A stretch of DNA of 45,112 nt from a virus, in the IMG/VR virus record IMGVR_UViG_3300019758_000011, positions 1-45,112 of that record; one strand, 5' to 3'. This document shows positions 26,309 through 45,112 of this stretch, piece after piece (position 1 is the stretch's first letter; the number at the start of each line of letters is the position of its first letter). The notes below the pieces were generated by a model. The model was not told the DNA's origin. It made no database searches and worked only from the letters and a program-made list of their open reading frames with translations. A program made the position numbers and the translations under genes.

Positions 26309-27457
26309 ATGAACATTTCCATAAAATTGGATGGGAGAAAAACATCTCTCACAAAAGCTGGATTCCCAATTGTTTTTTATCTCAGCAAAAATAGTAAATT
26401 CAAACGAATTAAAACAGGATATTTTTCAGAACAAAAAAACTGGGATAAAAAGAACCAGATTCCTAAAAAATCACATCCAAATTTTATTGAGTTGCTAAAT
26501 TATTTAAGCAATAAAAAAATAAGAATTGGAAAGCTCCAGGAACAGTCAAAAACAGAGGCTTTAAATTTTCATTATGTTGAGAGATTTTTGCTCCAGAATG
26601 ATTCTGGAATTTTTTATCTGGAGGGCTTGAAATTGGAGGGAGTCTCCAGAACTTATAAAATTGCTTTAAACTCATTCCAAAAATACTTTCCAGATTACCC
26701 ATTTAAAATGATTACCAAAGAGATTGCTGAGGAATATATGAATTTACTTATAAATACTCCAACAGCTAACAATTTTAAACAGAGGAGTTCCAATGGAGTT
26801 ATTTCTTATATGAATACTTTGACAGCTGCCTGGAATAAATTAAAAAGACCAAACAATCCATTCTCTGCAATAAGACCAGCAGCAACCAGAACAAAAAACA
26901 AAGCAATGACTCCAGAGGATTTAATTAAGATTAAAAACTCTCCTATTGCTCCAGATGGAAACTCAAAAGGAGGAGGAGTTTACAATTACTTAAATTATTT
27001 TTTACTTTGTTTTTATTTGGGTGGAATTGATATGAATGACCTGGCTCATTCAAAATGGTCTGACGTTGTAGATGGGAGGCTGGAATTTACCAGGAGGAAA
27101 GGAGGAACCAATGTTTTTGTTTCAAATAAAATATTTCCAGAGGCAATGGAGCTCCTGGAGCAATATAATTGCAAACCTTATTTAATTCCTTTAATTTTAG
27201 AAAACAATTACAGAAATTTTATCCCAAATGTCTCCAGGAGGTTCCAGGATATTAAAGAGCAGCTCCAACTTTCAAAAAAGCCTTATTCAAAAGCTCCCAG
27301 ATATACTTTTATTACAAGAGCTCAACAGTTACTGATTGATGAGAGAATCACAGTTGAAATTGTAGGACATAAGCAACAGAGCACACATTCCATTTATAAG
27401 GATGAGTTTCCTTTCCATGTAAGAGATGAGGCTCATAAAAAGATAATTGGATTATAA
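26309..27457 (+). CDS. int: Phage integrase, tyrosine recombinase
   Basis: A 382-residue protein of the Bacteroidetes phage/transposon integrase type: an N-terminal arm-binding domain (residues 1-80), a SAM-like core-binding domain (about 95-180) and a catalytic domain (about 200-380). Catalytic R331 (APRYTFITRAQ), H354 (VGHKQQST) and nucleophile Y363 (HSIYKD) are visible, with a Lys in FTRRKGG. The first catalytic Arg, expected near residues 238-241, reads GGIDMNDL and is missing; a number of Bacteroidetes integrases vary here. It presumably integrates and excises the prophage at the adjacent attP. Confidence 0.84.
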   Translation: MNISIKLDGRKTSLTKAGFPIVFYLSKNSKFKRIKTGYFSEQKNWDKKNQIPKKSHPNFIELLNYLSNKKIRIGKLQEQSKTEALNFHYVERFLLQNDSGIFYLEGLKLEGVSRTYKIALNSFQKYFPDYPFKMITKEIAEEYMNLLINTPTANNFKQRSSNGVISYMNTLTAAWNKLKRPNNPFSAIRPAATRTKNKAMTPEDLIKIKNSPIAPDGNSKGGGVYNYLNYFLLCFYLGGIDMNDLAHSKWSDVVDGRLEFTRRKGGTNVFVSNKIFPEAMELLEQYNCKPYLIPLILENNYRNFIPNVSRRFQDIKEQLQLSKKPYSKAPRYTFITRAQQLLIDERITVEIVGHKQQSTHSIYKDEFPFHVRDEAHKKIIGL

Positions 27458-37685: not shown

Positions 37686-37746
37686 CTCTAACGGTTGAGT
37701 GTAAAAAATCGTTTTAATGTTTTTTACACTTTGTTACCAACAGTAC
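37686..37746 (+). repeat. attC-like site A
   Basis: R'' CTCTAAC (37686-37692), spacer GGTTG, L'' AGTGTAAAAAA (37698-37708), loop TCGTTTTAATG, L' TTTTTTACACT (37720-37730, perfect complement), spacer TT, R' GTTACCAACA (from 37733). Confidence 0.6.
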
Positions 37747-37772
37747 GGATTATTAACTTAAAAATTAAATAT

Positions 37773-37964
37773 ATGAAACGAGAATTAAAAGAAGGTGATT
37801 GGGTTGCTTATAATTGGTTAGACGATGAAGGTAACGATAATTGGAAAATAGGCAGAATTGTAGAAACCGAAACAAATGGATTAATGTACTTCAATGATGA
37901 TGGTACTGAAAGAAGTGGTTATATACCAATCACCAATGGCGTGAAATTACTGACTAACGATTAG
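37773..37964 (+). CDS. Cassette gene: small acidic protein
   Basis: A 63-residue acidic protein (MKRELKEGDWVAYNWLDDEGNDNWKIGRIVETETNGLMYFNDDGTERSGYIPITNGVKLL). The strand pattern and KEGDWVAY...WKIGRIVE suggest a small SH3-like barrel. An upstream in-frame codon at 37695 would lie in site A and is rejected. The whole gene lies between R' of site A and the complementary R'' of site B, exactly as a cassette gene should. An A+T-rich leader (ATTAACTTAAAAATTAAATAT) precedes the ATG. Confidence 0.66.
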   Translation: MKRELKEGDWVAYNWLDDEGNDNWKIGRIVETETNGLMYFNDDGTERSGYIPITNGVKLLTND

Positions 37965-38273
37965 TATTGTTGGTAACGGTTTGTGTATGAGTAGTAATAC
38001 TACGGATTTAATAACTAAAAATTAAAATAAAATGGATTACAAAATTGAAAACGAAAAAGTTAAAGATTTCTTTGAGGTGGTTGATGACCTTGAAAAACTA
38101 TTGACAGATAGAATAAGTGATTTGCACGAAGTAAAAGGCGGTATGCAAGCAAGACACGCTTACATTCTTTATAGAAAGCTGCTTTGGGAAGCTAAATATT
38201 TGATGAGAGATAACCTCAAAGAAATTAAAACGAAAAGTAAGTAGTATTATTACTTATACACATTGTTGTAAAA
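37964..38273 (+). repeat. attC-like site B, enclosing a gene
   Basis: R'' GTATTGTTGGTAAC (37964-37977), spacer GGTT, L'' at 37982-38003, L' at 38241-38262 (20 of 22 complementary), spacer TT, R' GTTGTAAAA (38265-38273). The loop holds the gene 38032-38244, whose stop codon lies in L'. Confidence 0.55.
38032..38244 (+). CDS. Cassette gene: small helical protein
   Basis: A 70-residue protein (MDYKIENEKVKDFFEVVDDLEKLLTDRISDLHEVKGGMQARHAYILYRKLLWEAKYLMRDNLKEIKTK). Mostly helical with a mixed charge pattern; no family recognised. It lies wholly between the L'' and L' arms of site B; its stop codon is in the first bases of the L' arm. A leader ACGGATTTAATAACTAAAAATT resembles that of the previous gene (ACGGATTATTAACTTAAAAATT), showing repeated upstream sequence. 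Confidence 0.62.
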   Translation: MDYKIENEKVKDFFEVVDDLEKLLTDRISDLHEVKGGMQARHAYILYRKLLWEAKYLMRDNLKEIKTKSK

Positions 38274-38421
38274 TCGTTTTAATGTTTTACAACGTTGTTG
38301 TGTATGCCACGTTGCGACTTTGAATAATAATTAAACTTAATAGAAATGGAAAAAGAAAGAGGAATTACAATAACTAATGTAGATAAGAAAAAGCAATGTG
38401 ATATACACGTTGTTACCACAC
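38265..38421 (+). repeat. attC-like site C and preceding 29-base mini-unit
   Basis: GTTGTAAAA (38265-38273), 11-base loop, TTTTACAAC (38285-38293; R'' of site C), spacer GTTGT, L'' TGTGTATGCCACG (38299-38311), L' TGTGATATACACG (38397-38409; about 9 of 13), spacer TT, R' GTTACCACAC (38412-38421). L' and R' lie inside gene 38346-38666. Confidence 0.5.
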
Positions 38422-38666
38422 GTTTTTCACCTGCAATTGCAGAAATGAAAGAAGCTATTCTTAATGACTTAAAAAAGTTAAGCAAAGGCTATGGTAAATT
38501 GAAATGGGCTATATCTAAAGATACTGAAATACCAGTTGATATATTAACTGTACTTCTTAAACAACTAAAATACGAGGGTAAAGTAGAATTAATAATGATA
38601 TGGTCTGAATCAACTGGTAAACCTGATGGTAGTGGTTATTGCTTAACTGGCAAATCATCACATTAA
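38346..38666 (+). CDS. Cassette-region gene: possible winged-helix protein
   Basis: A 106-residue protein (MEKERGITITNVDKKKQCDIHVVTTRFSPAIAEMKEAILNDLKKLSKGYGKLKWAISKDTEIPVDILTVLLKQLKYEGKVELIMIWSESTGKPDGSGYCLTGK). The part IPVDILTVLLKQLKYEGKVELIMIW...GYCL fits a small winged helix, so DNA binding is possible. The L' and R' boxes of site C code for residues 18-26 (CDIHVVTTR), so the gene straddles a putative cassette boundary. Its stop is 2 bases before R'' of site D. Confidence 0.62.
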   Translation: MEKERGITITNVDKKKQCDIHVVTTRFSPAIAEMKEAILNDLKKLSKGYGKLKWAISKDTEIPVDILTVLLKQLKYEGKVELIMIWSESTGKPDGSGYCLTGKSSH

Positions 38667-38668
38667 AT

Positions 38669-38810
38669 GTGTGGTAACGGTTTTGTATATAAAAAGTAGG
38701 CGTAGGAAGGTATGAACCACGGAAAGCCTAAACGACACACTAAAACAAGGACACTAGCCTTGAGATGTTACCAAGTGTCTAGCCTATTTTTTATATACAT
38801 TGTTAACTAC
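38669..38810 (+). repeat. attC-like site D
   Basis: R'' GTGTGGTAAC (38669-38678), spacer GGTTT, L'' TGTATATAAAAAGTAGGC (38684-38701), 80-base loop, L' at 38782-38799 (17 of 18 complementary), spacer TT, R' GTTAACTAC (38802-38810). Closest in form to a real attC (142 bp, no gene inside). Confidence 0.65.
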
Positions 38811-38869
38811 TGTTATTTTTGCGCGGTGGCAAATGGCGATAGCCAAATATTTATAAATTTTTTACTTTT

Positions 38870-38906
38870 TTATTTGTGTATACCGTATATATGTTATATA
38901 TTTGCA
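38870..38906 (+). promoter_or_regulatory. Internal promoter in the cassette region
   Basis: TTTGTG about 19 bases before TATATTTGC (38899-38907) gives good -33 and -7 elements of the Bacteroidetes type, 27 bases before the ATG at 38934. Confidence 0.5.
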
Positions 38907-38933
38907 CCAGTAATAACAACTAAAACATATATT

Positions 38934-39212
38934 ATGACAACTTACACAAACAAAAAAATAAAAACTGAAACTAAAACATTAGAAATATTAAGAGAAACTA
39001 AAACAAGCGTTTTTGTAAGACCCGATGATTGTAAGTTATGGAAAGACATTTGTATCTCTAAATCAAATTTGACTTTTATTAATAATGGAGTTGAGATATA
39101 TTTTGAATTATCATTTAAAAAAGTTTGGACTGAATCTAATTTTAAATTAAACGCTTTAGGTTTTGAGGGAAACTTAAACAGTAGAAAAAACAGTATGTTA
39201 ACATTTGTATAA
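38934..39212 (+). CDS. Cassette gene: hypothetical protein
   Basis: A 92-residue basic protein (MTTYTNKKIKTETKTLEILRETKTSVFVRPDDCKLWKDICISKSNLTFINNGVEIYFELSFKKVWTESNFKLNALGFEGNLNSRKN). ATG at 38934 is chosen because it follows a good promoter; an upstream extension would run through site D and give an improbable hydrophobic protein. It ends one base before the next gene and both fall between R' of site D and R'' of site E. Confidence 0.6.
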   Translation: MTTYTNKKIKTETKTLEILRETKTSVFVRPDDCKLWKDICISKSNLTFINNGVEIYFELSFKKVWTESNFKLNALGFEGNLNSRKNSMLTFV

Positions 39213-39213
39213 T

Positions 39214-39462
39214 ATGAGAAAAATAATAGATATAAAAGAGGAAGACTTACTGCCGTTAAAGATAATGGCAGCAAAGGCAGATAAGGACTTAAAAAACTAT
39301 ATTCAGGATTTAATTACAGACAAAGTAAATAGTAAAAATGCTTTTTTTTGTGACGGTTTTTTAGTTAATGGAGAAACAACTTGTACTAAACAATGTACTG
39401 GGTGCGAAAAATCATTATATAAACCCAAGTGGGCACGTTCTGCTTGGTGGCAAAAAAAATAA
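39214..39462 (+). CDS. Cassette gene: ribbon-helix-helix-like protein with Cys cluster
   Basis: An 82-residue protein. Residues 1-38 (MRKIIDIKEEDLLPLKIMAAKADKDLKNYIQDLITDKV) match the ribbon-helix-helix pattern of Arc/MetJ-type regulators and antitoxins (short strand, helix with LK-x-x-AA, then DLKNYIQDLI). The rest has a Cys cluster (FFCDGFLVNGETTCTKQCTGC) followed by basic and Trp-rich residues. It is the second gene of a two-gene cassette. No toxin is evident next to it; the preceding gene is a possible but unproven partner. Confidence 0.64.
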   Translation: MRKIIDIKEEDLLPLKIMAAKADKDLKNYIQDLITDKVNSKNAFFCDGFLVNGETTCTKQCTGCEKSLYKPKWARSAWWQKK

Positions 39463-39464
39463 TT

Positions 39465-39670
39465 GTAGTTAACGGATACGTATAAGGCTATTTGCGATTA
39501 ATAACAAAATAAAATATATAAAAATGAAAAGACCAATTTATGAGAGCATCGTCTATGACACAGGAAGCGAATTAGAAGATTTACGACTGTTTAGAAAAGA
39601 TATTGAAGATTATGCAGACTTTTTAGAAAAGGAACGAAATAAGCAATTAGCTTTATGCGAAGTTAGCAAC
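39465..39670 (+). repeat. attC-like site E, running into a gene
   Basis: R'' GTAGTTAAC (39465-39473), spacer GGATA, L'' CGTATAAGGCTATTT (39479-39493), L' AATTAGCTTTATGCG (39645-39659; 12 of 15), spacer AA, R' GTTAGCAAC (39662-39670). L' and R' fall within gene 39524-39781. Confidence 0.5.
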
Positions 39671-39781
39671 CAAAGGGAAACGTTTAATGCTTGGTTTGTT
39701 TATTTAGACGAATTATCGGAAAATGAATATGACAATCGGAGTATAACTGAACACGTTGAAGATTACCTAAAAAACATTTAA
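39524..39781 (+). CDS. Cassette-region gene: acidic hypothetical protein
   Basis: An 85-residue acidic protein (MKRPIYESIVYDTGSELEDLRLFRKDIEDYADFLEKERNKQLALCEVSNQRETFNAWFVYLDELSENEYDNRSITEHVEDYLKNI), helical throughout. No family recognised. Bases coding for about residues 41-49 (KQLALCEVSN) form the L' and R' boxes of site E, so this gene spans a putative recombination boundary, as do two others in the region. Stop 2 bases before R'' of site F. Confidence 0.58.
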   Translation: MKRPIYESIVYDTGSELEDLRLFRKDIEDYADFLEKERNKQLALCEVSNQRETFNAWFVYLDELSENEYDNRSITEHVEDYLKNI

Positions 39782-39783
39782 TG

Positions 39784-40228
39784 TTTGCTAACGAATACGA
39801 ATATGATTTGGCACGATAAAAAATAATATAAATTTTAATTAAAAACGATATGAAAGCAAAAAATTTAAGAGTAGGAAATTTAGTAAAGACAAATGAATTA
39901 GCTTGTAATGAAACCAAAGGTAGTATTTTAAAGGTTGCTGGTGTTGGTTTAGATGTTGATTTTACAAACGGCACTACACAAAATTACATAGGCATAGAAG
40001 GTATTAAATTAACACATAAACTACTAAAACAGTTTGGATTTGTAAAACAACAATGTTTCTTCTATTGCGAAGGTGTTTGTATTGAAGATGATTTTACTTT
40101 GGAAGGATTTGGCAAAGTACCTTTAAGATACGTGCATCAATTACAAAACTTATTTTTTGCGTTAACTGGGACTGAACTTGTATTAAAAGACAAAGTTAGT
40201 GCTTAATTATATGCGAAGTTATTGCAAG
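39784..40228 (+). repeat. attC-like site F, enclosing a gene
   Basis: R'' TTTGCTAAC (39784-39792), spacer GAATA, L'' CGAATATGA (39798-39806), L' TTATATGCG (40207-40215; 7 of 9), spacer AA, R' GTTATTGCAAG (40218-40228). The loop contains gene 39850-40206. Confidence 0.45.
39850..40206 (+). CDS. Cassette gene: Bacteroidetes small mobile-element protein
   Basis: A 118-residue protein (MKAKNLRVGNLVKTNELACNETKGSILKVAGVGLDVDF...IKLTHKLLKQFGFVKQ...KVPLRYVHQLQNLFFALTGTEL). The order LRVGNLV ... I-x-L-T-x-x-x-L-x-x-FGF ... R-YVHQLQNL-x-FALTG-x-EL is common in hypothetical proteins from Bacteroidetes phages, plasmids and islands. Function unknown. It fills the space between the L arms of site F. Confidence 0.66.
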   Translation: MKAKNLRVGNLVKTNELACNETKGSILKVAGVGLDVDFTNGTTQNYIGIEGIKLTHKLLKQFGFVKQQCFFYCEGVCIEDDFTLEGFGKVPLRYVHQLQNLFFALTGTELVLKDKVSA

Positions 40229-40330
40229 TAGAGCCACGTACTGATTGCGTGGCTATGCTTTAATCGGCTGTATTTGCTATAACTTTATAGAGCATAAAAT
40301 CGTTTTAATGTTTTATGCGCATAGTTAAGC
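40218..40330 (+). repeat. attC-like site G with gene-less 65-base unit
   Basis: Between R' of site F (40218) and R'' TTTGCTATAAC (40273-40283) is a unit with no gene but a perfect 7-bp hairpin, AGCCACG/CGTGGCT (40232-40254). Then GCATAAAA (40292-40299), loop TCGTTTTAATG, TTTTATGC (40311-40318) and R' GTTAAGC (40324-40330). Confidence 0.52.
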
Positions 40331-40443
40331 AACGTTGCTAAAAAAAGGGCTATTGGTTTGCAAAACCAAAATAACACATTTCGAATAAGTATAGAACAAG
40401 TTTAATTTAAAAATAAATGTAATACAAAATAAAAATTAAAGAT

Positions 40444-40571
40444 ATGGCGGTAGATAAAAAGAAGTATGGGAAATTATAGAAAATTACGCCCCTAATTTAT
40501 CAAATGAGATAGGATGGGGGAGTATGGATAGTTTATGTGATAATTTAATTGAATACATACAAGAAAAATAG
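40444..40571 (+). pseudogene. Frameshifted small gene
   Basis: ATG at 40444 reads MAVDKKKYGKL and stops. One extra A in the A5 run at 40456-40460 would give MAVDKKEVWEIIENYAPNLS... continuing for 42 residues to TAG at 40569-40571, followed after zero bases by another ATG. The shifted frame has good coding character. Either a true one-base deletion or a homopolymer sequencing error. Confidence 0.45.
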
Positions 40572-40643
40572 ATGGAAGCAACAATTATAATAATAGGATT
40601 TTTAATAGTACTACTTTTATTAGGTGGTGCAAACAATTATTAA
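40572..40643 (+). CDS. Tiny membrane peptide
   Basis: A 23-residue frame, MEATIIIIGFLIVLLLLGGA..., nearly all hydrophobic. It starts directly after the stop of the frameshifted gene, in a coupled arrangement. It is too short for firm support; toxin-like single-span peptides have this form, but nothing else points that way. Confidence 0.35.
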   Translation: MEATIIIIGFLIVLLLLGGANNY

Positions 40644-40673
40644 GTAACTAACAAAGTAACAAAGAAAGTAACT

Positions 40674-41090
40674 ATGAGAGAAATTAAATTTAGAGCAAAA
40701 AGAATTGACAACTGGGAGGTTGTCTATGGTTCTTATTTTTTTGAAAAAAATGTTGAGATTAAAAAAGAAGATTCGCAAGGCAACTTTATTGTTTGCGGTT
40801 ATGAAGATAAGCATTCAATTAAAGTTGATGAAAAAACAAAAGACGGTAAAGTATGGTGCGATATTGATTTTGAAACATTAGAACAGTTTACAGGTTTGAA
40901 AGATAAAAATGGAATTGAAATTTATGAAGGAGATGTTATTTCGGCAATAAATTTAGGACAAAATCACAAAATTATTTTTAAAGATTTTATGTGGTTTTGT
41001 AAACCAATTGAAATTAACTTTAACCACTACAATGGTATTTGTTTAAAAGAAGCAAATAGATACAAAAAAACAGAAATTATAATAATATGA
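40674..41090 (+). CDS. YopX family protein
   Basis: A 138-residue protein with the YopX signature: REIKFRAKRIDNWEVVYGSYFF at the start, then FTGLKDKNGIEIYEGDVI in the middle. YopX proteins are widespread in phages of Firmicutes and Bacteroidetes, and their role is unknown. This one uses GAA-rich, CG-containing codons like its cassette neighbours rather than the backbone. It overlaps the next gene by 4 bases. Confidence 0.85.
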   Translation: MREIKFRAKRIDNWEVVYGSYFFEKNVEIKKEDSQGNFIVCGYEDKHSIKVDEKTKDGKVWCDIDFETLEQFTGLKDKNGIEIYEGDVISAINLGQNHKIIFKDFMWFCKPIEINFNHYNGICLKEANRYKKTEIIII

Positions 41091-41329
41091 ATTACGCATT
41101 TGAAATACTAAACGAACAAAGAGATTTGTTAAGAGATGAAATTAGATTCGCTAAAGGTTTAGAATTAGAAAAATTAAAAAGTAAAATTAAAGATGTTGAT
41201 GAAGCCTTATTAAGTTTACAAAAACCAATTACTAAGTTTTATTGTAAAGATGAAAGTTATCACAAAATTGACAGATGTTCAACACAATGCCCTGACTGTA
41301 TAGAATTTACAAAAGGATTTAAAAAATAA
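41087..41329 (+). CDS. Cassette-region gene: coiled coil with Cys cluster
   Basis: An 80-residue protein: a charged helix (LNEQRDLLRDEIRFAKGLELEKLKSKIKDVDEALLSLQ) and a Cys-containing end (FYCKDESYHKIDRCSTQCPDCIEF). The C-terminal C...CSTQCPDC resembles CTKQCTGC in gene 39214-39462, hinting at a shared small metal-binding ending. It is coupled to the YopX gene by a 4-base overlap. Function unknown. Confidence 0.6.
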   Translation: MNYAFEILNEQRDLLRDEIRFAKGLELEKLKSKIKDVDEALLSLQKPITKFYCKDESYHKIDRCSTQCPDCIEFTKGFKK

Positions 41330-41361
41330 CCTTTATTAGCTAATAATGGTTGTTATTTTCA
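41324..41361 (+). repeat. Hairpin after YopX gene pair
   Basis: AAATAAC / GTTATTT outer arms with TTATTA-GC-TAATAA inside, and unpaired bases of two and five between, similar in shape to the cassette sites but with the longer spacer on the right. Possibly a degenerate site. Confidence 0.35.
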
Positions 41362-41400
41362 TCATTCTACGGTGTGAGTGGCAGCCCTTTTTTTAGTTAT

Positions 41401-41676
41401 GTTATTTAACGTAATTGTGTATGGCACGTTGCGGAATTAAACACTAACCTTAACAAATAAAACAATGATTAAATTACAAGAACAACCAATAGTAACTCCA
41501 GAAAAATACTTGTTTAGAACTTGGATTGACGGAAGTAAGATTATAAAAACTGAAAAAGGGGATATAACTGTGATGGAAATATTGACAGACTTTAGAAATC
41601 ACTTATTACAAGACCTTGAACATAACAAAAAAGCCTATGCCCAAAAGCAATGTGCTATACACGGTGTTGTGGATAG
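41401..41676 (+). repeat. attC-like site H, running into a gene
   Basis: R'' TTATTTAAC (41402-41410), spacer GTAAT, L'' TGTGTATGGCACGTTGC (41416-41432), L' GCAATGTGCTATACACG (41647-41663; 14 of 17), spacer GT, R' GTTGTGGATAG (41666-41676). L' and R' are inside gene 41465-41824. L'' resembles that of site C. Confidence 0.52.
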
Positions 41677-41824
41677 TATGCCTATGACAAAAGACTTTAT
41701 TAATAAACTTGAAAGTAAGATTGAAAACAACCATAAAGGTTTAGACCAACTTTCAAAAACGCAAATGCTATTGGGTGGAAAATACGCTTTTAGGATAATA
41801 AATGGCTTTAAAAAACAAGATTAA
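41465..41824 (+). CDS. Cassette-region gene: hypothetical protein
   Basis: A 119-residue, charged, helical protein (MIKLQEQPIVTPEKYLFRTWIDGSKIIKTEKGDITVMEILTDFRNHLLQDLEHNKKAYAQKQCAIHGVVDSMPMTKDFINKLESKIENNHKG). No family recognised. Codons for about residues 61-71 (KQCAIHGVVDS) form the L' and R' boxes of site H. R' is matched by R'' of site I just after the stop. It is the last small gene before the recombinase. Confidence 0.6.
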   Translation: MIKLQEQPIVTPEKYLFRTWIDGSKIIKTEKGDITVMEILTDFRNHLLQDLEHNKKAYAQKQCAIHGVVDSMPMTKDFINKLESKIENNHKGLDQLSKTQMLLGGKYAFRIINGFKKQD

Positions 41825-41831
41825 GGCATAT

Positions 41832-41852
41832 TATCTACAACTAATATATAGA
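41832..41852 (+). repeat. attC-like site I, left half
   Basis: TATCTACAAC (41832-41841) complements R' of site H at 9 of 10, followed by spacer TAATA. No convincing L' is seen; GTTAGTAAC at 42743-42751, after TT and beyond the recombinase gene, could be a matching R'. Confidence 0.38.
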
Positions 41853-41933
41853 AATAACACTTATTTAAACCTTTATTTTACTGGGTTTTTAATTAAATAA
41901 TCTTTAAAAAATAACAAAAACAAAAAGAACATC

Positions 41934-42731
41934 ATGAGAATAATTGACGTATATAAGCAAAAATTAAAATTTAAAAATTACTCTTTAAAAACTATTGAAA
42001 CTTACAGCTGTTATTTAAGTAAGTTTATTATTGATTTAAATATAAAAGACCCTTATCAAATAAGTTTAAAACAAATAAAAAATTACTTAGAAAATAAAGA
42101 GTATAGTTCAATTTCAAAACAAAATCAAATTATTGGAGCATTGAAATTATTTGCAAGATACATTTTAAATAAAAAGGATGTTCATTTAAAAAAGATTGAG
42201 AGACCAAAAAAAGAGAAAAAACTACCTTTAGTAATTGAATCAGATTTTTTAAAATACACTATAAATAATATTGAGAATTTAAAACACAAATCTATTATAA
42301 TGCTGGGTTTTGGATGTGCTATGAGAGTAAGTGAGGTTATTAATTTAAAAATTACTGATATTGACAGTAAAAGAATGTTAATTCACATAAGGAATGCAAA
42401 AGGTAAAAAAGACAGGATTGTTCCAATTTCAGAAAATATTTTAAAAACGTTAAGGAATTACTTTAAAAAATACAAGCCAGTTAATCATTTATTTAACGGG
42501 CAATTTAAAAACCAATATTCTGCCGAGAGCTGCAATAAAATAGTTAAAAAACATTTAGGAGCAAACTATCATTTTCATACACTCAGACACTCTGGAGCAA
42601 CTACAATGCATGAGAATGGAACGGATTTGGCTTTGATTCAAAAACTATTAGGGCATAACAATATAAAAACTACAATGATTTACACTCACATCTCACAAAA
42701 AGCAATACAAAATATTAGTTTACCAATTTAA
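41934..42731 (+). CDS. Second tyrosine recombinase, Xer-like
   Basis: A 265-residue protein with a SAM-like N-terminal domain (residues about 1-85) and a complete catalytic domain: R131 (GCAMRVSEV), Lys in NAKGKKDRIVPI (156-159), H215 and R218 (HFHTLRHSGAT), H241 (LLGHNNIKTT) and Y250 (MIYTHIS). It is short and lacks both an arm-binding domain and the extra helix typical of IntI, so it resembles XerC/D-type enzymes. It is the first gene beyond the cassette-like chain and is the obvious candidate to act on it. Codon use is intermediate between backbone and cassette genes. Confidence 0.86.
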   Translation: MRIIDVYKQKLKFKNYSLKTIETYSCYLSKFIIDLNIKDPYQISLKQIKNYLENKEYSSISKQNQIIGALKLFARYILNKKDVHLKKIERPKKEKKLPLVIESDFLKYTINNIENLKHKSIIMLGFGCAMRVSEVINLKITDIDSKRMLIHIRNAKGKKDRIVPISENILKTLRNYFKKYKPVNHLFNGQFKNQYSAESCNKIVKKHLGANYHFHTLRHSGATTMHENGTDLALIQKLLGHNNIKTTMIYTHISQKAIQNISLPI

Positions 42732-43134: not shown

Positions 43135-43953
43135 ATGGCTGTGATAAGTTATAATAGTAAAAATTGCTCTGAATGTAATAAAGAAAAGCAGTTAAGTGAA
43201 TTCGGAAAACATAAACAATCAAAAGGTGGGTATTATTCTAAATGTAAAAAATGTCAAAAGGAATGGTACAATAATAATAAAATAGTTCTTAAGGAAAAAA
43301 GAGCTGTTTATATTGAAAAAAACAAAAATAAAATTGCCGAAAAAACAAAGGCGTATTATGAAACTAACAAAGACAAGATTATTGAATATGGTAAAGAGTA
43401 TAGTTTAGAATGGTATAAAAATAATAAAGACAAGGTTAAAAAAAAACAAAAAAATTATAGAGAAAACAATAAGCAAAAATATAACGCATATCATAAGAAA
43501 TTAAGAGATACAAATCCTTTGCATAAAATGAGTATGAATATAAGGAATAGAACAAGGAAAGCTTTTAATAGGGGAAATTGGAATAAAGACAGTAGTAATT
43601 TAAAAATGCTTGGATGTGATTATACAACAGCTTTTAATCATTTAGAGAAACAATTTACAAGTGGTATGAATTGGGATAATTATGGAGAATGGCACATTGA
43701 CCATATTAAACCATTAATCTCTGCAAATACAAAAGAAGAATTAAAAAAACTTTGCCTATATACTAATTTACAACCATTGTGGGCAATAGATAATTTAATC
43801 AAGGGGGGCAAGTATATTAAACCCAAACAAAACCCAAAGCAAAAGCTAAAAGTAAACCCAAATAAACCCAACCCTTTTGATAAGGTTTCCCATTTGGAGG
43901 AGCTGCTGAGAAAAAAGGAAAGTTTAAGAGCTAATTATACAGAGAGAGCATAA
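43135..43953 (+). CDS. HNH endonuclease next to terminase
   Basis: A 272-residue protein. An N-terminal zinc ribbon (CSECNKEKQLSEFGKHKQSKGGYYSKCKKCQKEW) is followed by a long Lys/Asn/Tyr-rich repeat region and an HNH core: GEWHIDHIKPL (H187, D189, H190) and NLQPLWAIDNLIKGG. HNH proteins beside terminases are needed for cos cutting in several HK97-type phages; free-standing HNH homing enzymes also occur. The first 225 codons are unlike the backbone (GAA, GTA, some CG) while the last 30 are backbone-like, so the gene may be a chimera. An AACCC repeat tract lies in its 3' part. Confidence 0.78.
   Translation: MAVISYNSKNCSECNKEKQLSEFGKHKQSKGGYYSKCKKCQKEWYNNNKIVLKEKRAVYIEKNKNKIAEKTKAYYETNKDKIIEYGKEYSLEWYKNNKDKVKKKQKNYRENNKQKYNAYHKKLRDTNPLHKMSMNIRNRTRKAFNRGNWNKDSSNLKMLGCDYTTAFNHLEKQFTSGMNWDNYGEWHIDHIKPLISANTKEELKKLCLYTNLQPLWAIDNLIKGGKYIKPKQNPKQKLKVNPNKPNPFDKVSHLEELLRKKESLRANYTERA
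43820..43875 (+). repeat. AACCC repeats in HNH gene
   Basis: AACCCAAAC/G/T at 43820, 43831, 43855 and 43865 (spacings 11, 24, 10). Bases 43819-43838 are identical to 33635-33654 in the putative origin. The reverse strand has five GGG runs. Confidence 0.6.
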
Positions 43954-44588: not shown

Positions 44589-45112
44589 ATGGATGTAACT
44601 GTCAAAAAAATAAGACCTCAAGAGGGTTATCAAATGAAAGCATTAAGCTCTCCAGCTGATATTGTTATCGGAGGAGGAGCAGCTGGAGCTGGTAAAACTT
44701 TCAGTTTATTATTAGACCCATTAAAGCACATAAAAAACCCAAATTTTGGAGGAGTTATTTTTAGGAGGACATCTCCTCAAATAAAAGTTGAGGGAGGTCT
44801 CTGGGACACATCTCTGGAGCTTTATAATGCTATTGGAGCAGCTCCAAAAGAATCCAACTCCTCCTGGGAATTTCCCTCTGGAGCAAAAATGAAATTCAAT
44901 CATTTAGAGTACGAAAAAAATATCCTGGACTGGCAAGGCTCTCAAATTCCTTTCCTGGGATTTGATGAGCTTACACATTTCACAAAGAAAATGTTTTTTT
45001 ATATGCTCTCCAGGAATAGGAGTGCTTGTGGGATTAAGCCTTATGTAAGAACAACATGCAATCCAGACCCAGAGAGCTGGGTTGCTGATTTGATTTCCTG
45101 GTGGATTGACCA
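44589..45112 (+). CDS. terL: Terminase large subunit, N-terminal part
   Basis: Residues 1-174 of a 500-residue protein that continues from base 124 of the window (bases 44990-45112 duplicate 1-123). The ATPase motifs are clear: Walker A GGGAAGAGKT at residues 28-37 and Walker B IPFLGFDEL with D126 and E127. ATG at 44589 is chosen because it abuts the terS stop; a second ATG four bases on is out of frame. This motor hydrolyses ATP to pump DNA into the procapsid through the portal. Confidence 0.93.
   Translation, partial: MDVTVKKIRPQEGYQMKALSSPADIVIGGGAAGAGKTFSLLLDPLKHIKNPNFGGVIFRRTSPQIKVEGGLWDTSLELYNAIGAAPKESNSSWEFPSGAKMKFNHLEYEKNILDWQGSQIPFLGFDELTHFTKKMFFYMLSRNRSACGIKPYVRTTCNPDPESWVADLISWWID
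44990..45112. repeat. Terminal overlap of circular assembly (right copy)
   Basis: Identical to bases 1-123. See the left copy for interpretation. Nothing is unique here; the duplicated bases encode terL residues about 134-174. Confidence 0.93.

Follow-up and report, generated by a model that had tools for sequence, protein, structure and literature searches.

A chain of paired repeats that runs between small phage genes and stops short of a tyrosine recombinase gene raises the question of whether the phage collects genes as integrons do and, if so, by which enzyme. An earlier note had proposed an integron-like chain of small-gene cassettes at this locus, on a phage and beside a tyrosine recombinase gene, and this proposal is borne out by shuffled sequences, by linkage among IMG/VR records and by differences between cultured isolates. 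We therefore regard it as very probable that the window (the whole 45,112-nucleotide stretch analysed) carries a phage-borne integron-like cassette system. Judging by its nearest cultured relatives, which are Polaribacter phages, the virus probably infects a Bacteroidota host; the array DNA itself gave only short matches to named phages.

Sequence inspection of the chain finds all nine of the proposed sites as AAC junctions (9/9), which bound eight cassettes over 37690-41841 (Table 1), and the recombinase gene, said earlier to follow the chain directly, starts 92 bp past the last junction. A gene of the window array may sit in either interval, R'..R'' or L''..L', and several genes cross L'-R'. 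The window also contains a second integrase (26309-27457), which could serve lysogeny.

Table 1. Features of the window array. Pairing is given as Watson-Crick (+ G.T) pairs over arm length, for arms that were placed by eye beforehand and not blind. The AAC junctions end at 37692, 37977, 38293, 38678, 39473, 39792, 40283, 41410 and 41841.
Feature	Position	Strand	L''; L'	R'; R''	L''/L' pairing	R'/R'' pairing	Genes and remarks
AAC junction A	37690..37692	+					outer array end, distal to recombinase (from sequence)
c1 cassette	37693..37977	+	37698-37708; 37720-37730	37733-37741; 37969-37977	11+0/11	9/9	gene 37773-37964 within body; minimal hairpin with loop TCGTTTTAATG
c2 cassette	37978..38293	+	37982-38001; 38243-38262	38265-38273; 38285-38293	18+2/20	9/9	gene 38032-38244 enclosed by L'' and L'; body is a gene-free hairpin with loop TCGTTTTAATG
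c3 cassette	38294..38678	+	38300-38315; 38393-38408	38412-38422; 38668-38678	13+2/16	10+1/11	gene 38346-38666 begins within hairpin and runs across L' and R'
c4 cassette	38679..39473	+	38684-38701; 38782-38799	38802-38810; 39465-39473	17+1/18	9/9	two body genes, 38934-39212 and 39205-39462
c5 cassette	39474..39792	+	39480-39495; 39643-39658	39662-39671; 39783-39792	13+2/16	9/10	gene 39524-39781 runs across L' and R'
c6 cassette	39793..40283	+	39799-39814; 40199-40214	40218-40230; 40271-40283	12+2/16	11+1/13	gene 39850-40206 enclosed by L''/L', final bases within L' (phrog_10066, PHROG match, E 1.6e-16, unknown function); body is hairpin only
c7 cassette	40284..41410	+	40290-40299; 40311-40320	40324-40351; 41383-41410	9+0/10	23+3/28	YopX-family gene 40674-41090 (Pfam PF09643, E 3.8e-12), second gene 41087-41329; minimal hairpin with loop TCGTTTTAATG
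c8 cassette	41411..41841	+	41417-41432; 41647-41662	41666-41683; 41824-41841	14+2/16	16+2/18	gene 41465-41824 runs across L' and R'
attI-like box	41839..41862	+					AAC followed by TAATATATAGAAATAACACTT; adjoins recombinase; similar box ahead of recombinase in IMG/VR relatives
tyrosine recombinase	41934..42731	+					265 aa; PF00589, E 4.3e-35; proposed cassette recombinase

The pairing claimed for the L arms and for R' with R'' is present, including in pairs previously left unlisted. The spacers, described as 5 versus 2 nt, follow that description in part: AAC-L'' measures 4-6 nt, and L'-R' is 3 rather than 2 nt in c3, c5, c6, c7 and c8. For a blind test a unit had to consist, in order, of AAC, a gap of 4-6 nt, L arms that pair, a gap of 2-3 nt, GTT and an R'..R'' pair; this strict grammar yields 7 units in the array with a longest linked chain of 5. 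Comparison with shuffled sequence, the check named in the earlier note, favours the chain, as 200 dinucleotide shuffles of the array gave at most 4 units and linked chains of at most 1; nine further 4.2-kb segments of the window likewise gave linked chains of at most 1. R'/R'' pairs anchored on GTT alone show no excess (32 versus a shuffle mean of 24 and a maximum of 50), and thus the signal of the array over shuffles lies in the linked grammar only. The attC-type R''-L''..L'-R' layout keeps its structure while its sequence varies, the only fixed core being GTT/AAC, with several R' matching GTTRRRY loosely. The minimal hairpin is represented by 17 distinct stems with 95.7% of cells paired, and two-sided changes occur at 10/11 of its pairs; 0/500 shuffles scored as high. 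Arms of the minimal hairpins and of the window pair without bulges, under a search grammar that itself permits none, and the base after AAC is G at 7/8 of the junctions ahead of the attI-like box. A search of Rfam returned no match at gathering score and one chance-level match.

The 19-mer AAAATCGTTTTAATGTTTT occurs three times in the window (three copies in 0/100 shuffles) and is found exactly in at least 120 IMG/VR stretches, versus 66 stretches among 84,980 genomes, many of them outside Bacteroidota and without the surrounding hairpin. We considered a host-chromosome origin of the array and rejected it on this spread. A PF00589 protein is encoded by 19/98 distinct 19-mer records (from 100 of the at least 120 loci), which means that many arrays have no recombinase or that their records are fragmentary. 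The recombinase profile is matched at E ≤ 1e-88 in 2/295 genomes of one class, with at most 8 candidates scored per genome. A relative at E ≤ 1e-30, on the other hand, is present in 18/19 genomes bearing the 19-mer, which counts against a purely phage origin, as may the placement of two MAG contigs in the recombinase tree (below). Published matches to the loop motif CGTTTTAATG were unrelated by title among the matches listed.

We examined the linkage of array and recombinase in loci selected through the recombinase alone. A search with the L205 recombinase gave 49 such loci in IMG/VR; several of their records belong to the 19-mer set as well, which makes the two samples overlap. Upstream of the recombinase (150,549 bp), all 38 copies of CGTTTTAATG lie on the recombinase strand (+) and none on the opposite one, versus 2 on + and 1 on - downstream (230,471 bp) and 3 in total for the reversed-pattern control. 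An upstream site is present in 24/49 loci (18/24 with the full 5 kb upstream). Parsing covered 26/49 loci and the window, loci with a short upstream stretch or an incomplete match being set aside; in 24/27 parsed loci one or more units have their end at the attI-like AAC, and the total is 116 cassettes. Their R''-L'' spacer is 5, 6 or 4 nt (69, 38 and 9 cassettes) and their L'-R' spacer 2 or 3 nt (106 and 10), while the genes point toward the recombinase in 103 and away from it in 1, the other 12 having no ORF of 50 aa. The best chain reaches at least 4 in 18/26 loci, in 0/104 shuffles, in 0/21 downstream stretches and in 0/26 reverse complements; shorter chains prove nothing, because shuffles also yield chains of 1-3. 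The automatic parser set one boundary in the cultured phage Freya wrongly (2215 versus the true 2163). L hairpin alleles are common to many contigs, as 48-nt exact copies.

The attI-like box of the relatives is conserved in the form AAC followed by TAtnATATAt, with an abrupt switch in sequence at AAC. Contigs with an identical right side differ to the left of the box (L217/L219 versus L218 versus L220; L215 versus L216), and a cassette end that lies beside attI in one contig lies beside another cassette elsewhere (L218/L220, L225/L254, L119/L224). Left ends of shared blocks fall clearly at TAAC (117/252, 46% versus 4% in the inside-alignment control), and right ends are barely above that control (TAAC 27/238, 11% versus 7%; GTTA 35/238, 15% versus 9%).

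Cultured phages show the same boundaries in near-identical genomes. The Polaribacter phages Freya_1-10, from North Sea water, have seven array versions, represented by Freya_1, 2, 5, 6, 8, 9 and 10 (the arrays of Freya_3 and 4 are identical to that of Freya_2, and that of Freya_7 to that of Freya_6). These seven share a 43,913-bp core in which Freya_1, 2, 5, 6, 8 and 9 have 0, 4, 0, 1, 0 and 0 mismatches to Freya_10, and their arrays differ by whole cassettes (0, 2, 3, 4 and so on), Freya_1 being empty. The versions are nested (1 within 2 within 5 within 6, and 5 within 9 within 10) and the change always adjoins the recombinase; in Freya_8 one inner cassette is missing. In the related case of Danklef, a 781-bp methylase cassette has been gained or lost between AAC junctions (Danklef_1 and 5 versus 2, 3 and 4), and a 1,164-bp cassette common to Danklef and Freya (99.57% identity) ends at junctions. 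A fixed gene order, which had been named as an outcome that would speak against mobility, is contradicted by these isolates, and since they differ by exactly whole cassettes the array looks like a working gene-collecting system. Exchange had been placed at the GTT of R'; this has to be revised to the AAC of R'', directly after which all pairwise common prefixes of the seven Freya isolates end (21/21). With exchange at AAC, a cassette runs from behind one AAC through L''..L', R' and the gene to the AAC of its own R'', which places the hairpin 5' of the gene.

We propose that the XerA-like tyrosine recombinase of ~265 aa inserts and excises short cassettes at the attI-like site upstream of its own gene, with the crossover in or at AAC. 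On the coding strand such a cassette would consist, behind AAC, of a spacer (4-6), L''..L', a second spacer (2-3), R' (GTT..), the gene and R'' (..AAC). By analogy with IntI the recombinase may act on the folded single-stranded hairpin, insertion would take place mostly beside attI, and the cargo of small proteins and DNA methylases could help the phage in different hosts.

The neighbouring recombinase is the candidate enzyme by its position. It is unlikely, if conceivable, that another enzyme (host XerCD, or a recombinase of the host or of a co-infecting phage) moves the cassettes while the neighbouring one only integrates the phage. Most array-bearing records have no recombinase, and the Danklef array varies although the Danklef recombinase is N-terminally truncated, so that the activity may be supplied in trans or by a different enzyme; Bartlau et al. 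moreover interpreted the integrase of Freya as an indication of a temperate lifestyle (PMC8776804). However, the recombinase follows the attI-like box at the same end and on the same strand in many unrelated contigs, and in the window the second integrase could serve lysogeny.

That the locus is a true integron (IntI acting on attC) whose sequence has merely diverged is very improbable. The topology is the same (recombinase, attI, ordered cassettes), R'/R'' and L''/L' arms are paired, and the recombinase matches both the XerA and the TIGR02249 profiles, the latter at E 3.4e-46 but with a score of 158, below the cut-off of 265. The recombinase lacks the IntI-specific insertion, with 31 residues where IntI4 (2a3v) has 78, and on this ground we reject a canonical integron; the GKG..R-to-HxxRH distance is 57 in Freya and 53-55 in the array proteins (six caught by the pattern), versus 99-100 in three IntI and 66-67 in three Xer proteins. 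The genes, moreover, face the recombinase. In the recombinase tree the IntI rows form a separate group (100/100); the Freya recombinase joins that of Ingeline (99/98) outside the array clade, the deep split being weak (79/89), and two MAG contigs, L264 and L265, lie within the array clade.

An account with no site-specific enzyme, in which similar hairpins undergo homologous recombination or polymerase slippage, could draw on the short homology that the shared hairpin alleles provide, yet the Freya cassette flanks share little beyond AAC where every comparison breaks, and the attI-like side is not hairpin sequence, leaving it scarcely credible. Inverted repeats that arose by chance, or transcription terminators, between the small genes would fit the ordinary frequency of GTT-anchored pairs; both are ruled out for practical purposes by the linked chain in comparison with shuffles, the conserved loop with covarying stems, the strand polarity and the isolate variation.

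Freya thus offers a cultured natural experiment, ten isolates with seven versions of one cassette array. The phage-borne cassette system would give phages a route to shuffle small accessory genes, DNA methylases included, as whole cassettes, and it makes questions about integrons testable: the need for the IntI-specific domain, the control of strand and gene polarity, and the origin of cassettes. In a Bacteroidota phage, an 'integrase' gene of this type is not necessarily a sign of lysogeny. In a search that left most subscription journals and all preprints outside its scope, we found no published description of such a phage cassette system. Tentatively, and with somewhat more doubt than conviction, we suggest a second, independently arisen integron in Bacteroidota phages. 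Its Xer-type recombinase would have lacked the IntI domain from the start, its gene polarity would be reversed, its recombination sites would themselves supply start codons and leader peptides and so belong to the gene, and its gene-exchange network would reach up to jumbo-phage size and stand largely apart from bacterial integrons.

In the canonical integron the core is GTTRRRY / RYYYAAC, and cassettes have attC at the 3' end of the gene with genes pointing away from attI. Like it, the phage system has a recombinase beside an attI-like site, an ordered array that gains and loses whole cassettes, paired R'/R'' and L''/L' arms, an asymmetric unpaired spacer and AAC followed mostly by G. In integrons, G follows AAC on the recombined strand, and extrahelical bases on the L'' arm set the strand choice (PMC2727003). 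The extra IntI domain near patch III is described as defining for integron integrases (PMC9668308), and an account of the tyrosine recombinases of an integron-like subgroup presents the insertion as indispensable for an integron to work (PMC8138268). Qi et al. 2023 report attC-like arrays in phage genomes, as phage-borne integrons and CALINs (attC clusters without intI), one case being Polaribacter phage P12002L, whose attCs point in divergent directions; their use of IntegronFinder and HattCI implies canonical attC/IntI, and the sections consulted name no recombinase of the present type (PMC9892861). The window recombinase resembles XerA and simple Xer-type enzymes in sequence, in length and in an end-to-end alignment with 4a8e, but where Xer is tied to chromosome dimer resolution, it accompanies cassette arrays with their attI-like box. 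Unlike an integron, the phage system exchanges at R'' on the coding strand, has the hairpin 5' of the gene with a conserved loop and genes within or across it, and uses its own attI-like box. The system works like an integron but, because its recombinase has no IntI-specific domain and its genes face the recombinase, is not one by definition.

The array of the window comprises eight cassettes (c1 to c8) delimited by nine AAC junctions, every cassette having paired L''/L' arms and paired R'/R'' arms. An L or R interval may be empty and closed by the loop TCGTTTTAATG (L in c1 and c7, R in c2) or may bear the gene, and the main gene lies in the body, the interval from R' to R'', in c1, c4 and c7, in the L loop in c2 and c6, and runs through L'-R' in c3, c5 and c8. 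The integron-like chain of linked R'/R'' and L''/L' pairs described in the earlier note stands far above shuffled sequence, as the longest linked chain is 5 in the array and at most 1 in 200 shuffles.

The minimal site reads AAC N5 stem11 loop11 stem11 N2 GTT. A structure-only search, in DNA chosen in part by a 19-mer present three times in the array, returned 29 distinct minimal sites, 27 with loop TCGTTTTAATG, versus 0 for a parallel-pairing control, and 10 of the 11 stem pairs covary among 17 distinct stems chosen by loop and flanks with no pairing filter. L regions fall into length classes near 40, 80 and 117, a few long ones (six >800) likely being parse errors. Forward-strand ORFs of 103 cassettes are placed in the body (58), spanning L'-R' (40) or in the L loop (5).

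Linkage of the chain to a recombinase, also claimed earlier, was borne out from the recombinase side. Using the recombinase of locus L205 as query we obtained 49 loci, many on contigs >100 kb, around which 38 sites lie upstream on the same strand, 0 upstream on the other strand and 3 downstream, two of the latter belonging to L263, a 25-residue recombinase match. An upstream site is present in 24 of the 49 loci, the remaining 25 including loci with little DNA upstream or whose sites have different loops. The best chain is 4–12 in 18 of 26 loci, while chains of at least 4 occur in 0/104 shuffles, 0/21 downstream stretches and 0/26 reverse complements. An attI-like box, (N)TAAC followed directly by TATTATATATAAACAAGTA or a variant (TATCATATATCAACACCTAG, others), precedes the recombinase start by ∼50–130 nt in nearly all 42 loci shown (not visible in L245 and L253; automatic placement was wrong in 5 of 40 loci), and 24 of 27 parsed arrays end at its AAC. 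Between loci identical on the right side of the box, the sequence changes abruptly on its left. This switch sets the polarity of the system, with the insertion point at the AAC (R'') rather than the GTT (R') boundary at which exchange had been proposed.

For blocks shared between oriented loci, a TAAC lies no more than 7 nt from the left end in each of the two sequences in 117 of 252 cases (random 0.7%, inside alignment 3.9%), and right ends show a weak excess (TAAC 27/238, GTTA 35/238; inside-alignment control 7.4% and 8.9%). These counts indicate that L units return with different bodies and cassettes in different places; in integrons, attC types likewise recur with different bodies.

Related cultured phages vary at cassette boundaries, as the integron-like reading had anticipated. 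The 43,913-bp cores of Freya_1, 2, 5, 6, 8 and 9 carry 0, 4, 0, 1, 0 and 0 mismatches, respectively, to Freya_10, and their arrays, taken from the last common gene to the recombinase, differ by whole cassettes. The array is empty in Freya_1, holds cassettes of 382 + 460 bp in Freya_2 (Freya_3 and Freya_4 being equal to it), 382 + 460 + 902 bp in Freya_5, and the Freya_5 set plus a 472-bp cassette absent from every other version in Freya_6 (and, identically, Freya_7). Freya_9 has 382 + 460 + 902 + 1,727 + 1,164 bp (the 1,727-bp boundary, missed by the parser, was taken from the Freya_5/9 comparison), Freya_10 adds 307 bp, and Freya_8 has the Freya_10 set minus the 902-bp cassette. All 21 pairwise common prefixes stop directly after AAC, and common suffixes begin at AAC or at most 8 bases before. 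In Danklef, a cassette of 781 bp, flanked by ...TCTAAC and ...GGTAAC and carrying a gene annotated as an adenine-specific methylase, is present in Danklef_1 and 5 and absent from Danklef_2, 3 and 4. The 1,164-bp cassette is common to Freya and Danklef at 99.57% identity, the match stopping at the junctions. These whole-cassette differences are proof-like evidence. The cassettes are modular units with a defined boundary and one polarity, are subject to ongoing gain or loss, and are accompanied by an attI-like box. The integrase is annotated only as a 132-bp remnant in all five Danklef records (L308-L312), although their arrays differ. Leef, another cultured flavobacterial phage, has two short stretches in common with the Freya_10 array. 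In the paper on these phages (PMC8776804), genome sizes are 44.0–48.9 kb, the Freya integrase is taken as temperate potential, and the word 'integron' is absent from the main text.

Matches to the 19-mer occur in at least 120 IMG/VR stretches. In DNA collected via the 19-mer, a selection that biases the counts and makes sites outside it the useful controls, the 10-mer CGTTTTAATG occurs 273 times versus 2–12 for four altered 10-mers; 43 of 215 hairpins are without the 19-mer and have different stems. Across 31 records CGTTTTAATG is found at 81 places versus 7 for the reversed pattern, mostly biased to a single strand per record. The recombinase closely follows the last site on the same strand in 7 of 10 PF00589-bearing records (G003, G007, G016, G029, G036, G038, G044) and is far from the sites in G012 and G050, the tenth, G021, being outside the site count. 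Scattered single hairpins, not arrays, with the same loop and another flank (..TTATC..CGTTAAACGAAGTTAG..) occur in chromosomes of Algibacter, Lacinutrix, Winogradskyella and relatives (around the 19-mer in L126, L128, L141, L155, L157, L164, L168, L171, L177, L179, L181, L187 and L188). L192 and L245 contain several near-identical ∼130-bp blocks ending in TGTCACAGACATTCATTTAAAC with differing right neighbours, perhaps another repeat-bounded array.

The window, an IMG/VR record of 45,112 bp, encodes both subunits of the terminase, large and small, as well as a portal protein, a head morphogenesis protein, a major head protein and a tape measure protein. Its genome is probably complete and circularly closed, because it has a direct terminal repeat and a separate contig, L190, spans the joined ends at 100% identity. 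Recombinase, HNH-like protein and TerS follow the order integrase, HNH endonuclease and terminase small subunit of Polaribacter phage Freya, whose integrase is 37.7% identical to the window recombinase; from this likeness we infer a Bacteroidota host.

Coordinates of features in the window
Feature	Position	Size	Remark
Direct terminal repeat	1-123 = 44990-45112	123 bp	
Second, longer tyrosine integrase	26309-27457	382 aa	phrog_1; candidate for phage integration proper
Cassette array	37690-41841		c1 to c8
Array recombinase	41934-42731	265 aa	proposed cassette recombinase
HNH-like protein	43135-43953		putative; named from our reading of its sequence
TerS	44034		

If the second integrase serves phage integration, the array recombinase would be left free for cassettes. 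In the mechanism we propose, this neighbouring recombinase would catalyse cassette exchange on a folded single strand, the asymmetric spacer (5 versus 2) would act as the polarity signal, replacing extrahelical bases, and cassettes would be inserted next to the attI-like site. The nested Freya series fits such insertion, but serial excision would yield the same series.

Pfam placed only the YopX-like gene of c7 above its cut-off among the window cassette genes, PHROGs matched the c6 and c7 genes to families of unknown function, and most had no match in either. Ten cassette proteins, selected among the 29 that are 105 aa or longer, gave two DNA methylases, one HD domain, one PARP-like match below its cut-off and six without a Pfam match. 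Unrelated cassette proteins have common N-termini, e.g. MSKEMRE.. or MKDLKQFIKTTIREFLNE.. (L220, L225, L230, L232, L234, L247, L254), perhaps a leader for targeting or processing.

The array recombinases are 265–276 aa long and retain R/K/HxxR/H/Y. In a tree of 62 proteins they cluster together, with two MAG proteins among them, and IntI stands apart at 100/100, grouped with Xer; the Freya recombinase, which has relatives in the cultured flavobacterial phages Ingeline (L293) and Leef, groups with that of Ingeline, the basal split being weak (79/89). The best profile match is XerA, with 4a8e aligned end to end, whereas IntI4 matches in two stretches only, between which it has 47 extra residues that the array recombinase profile is without.
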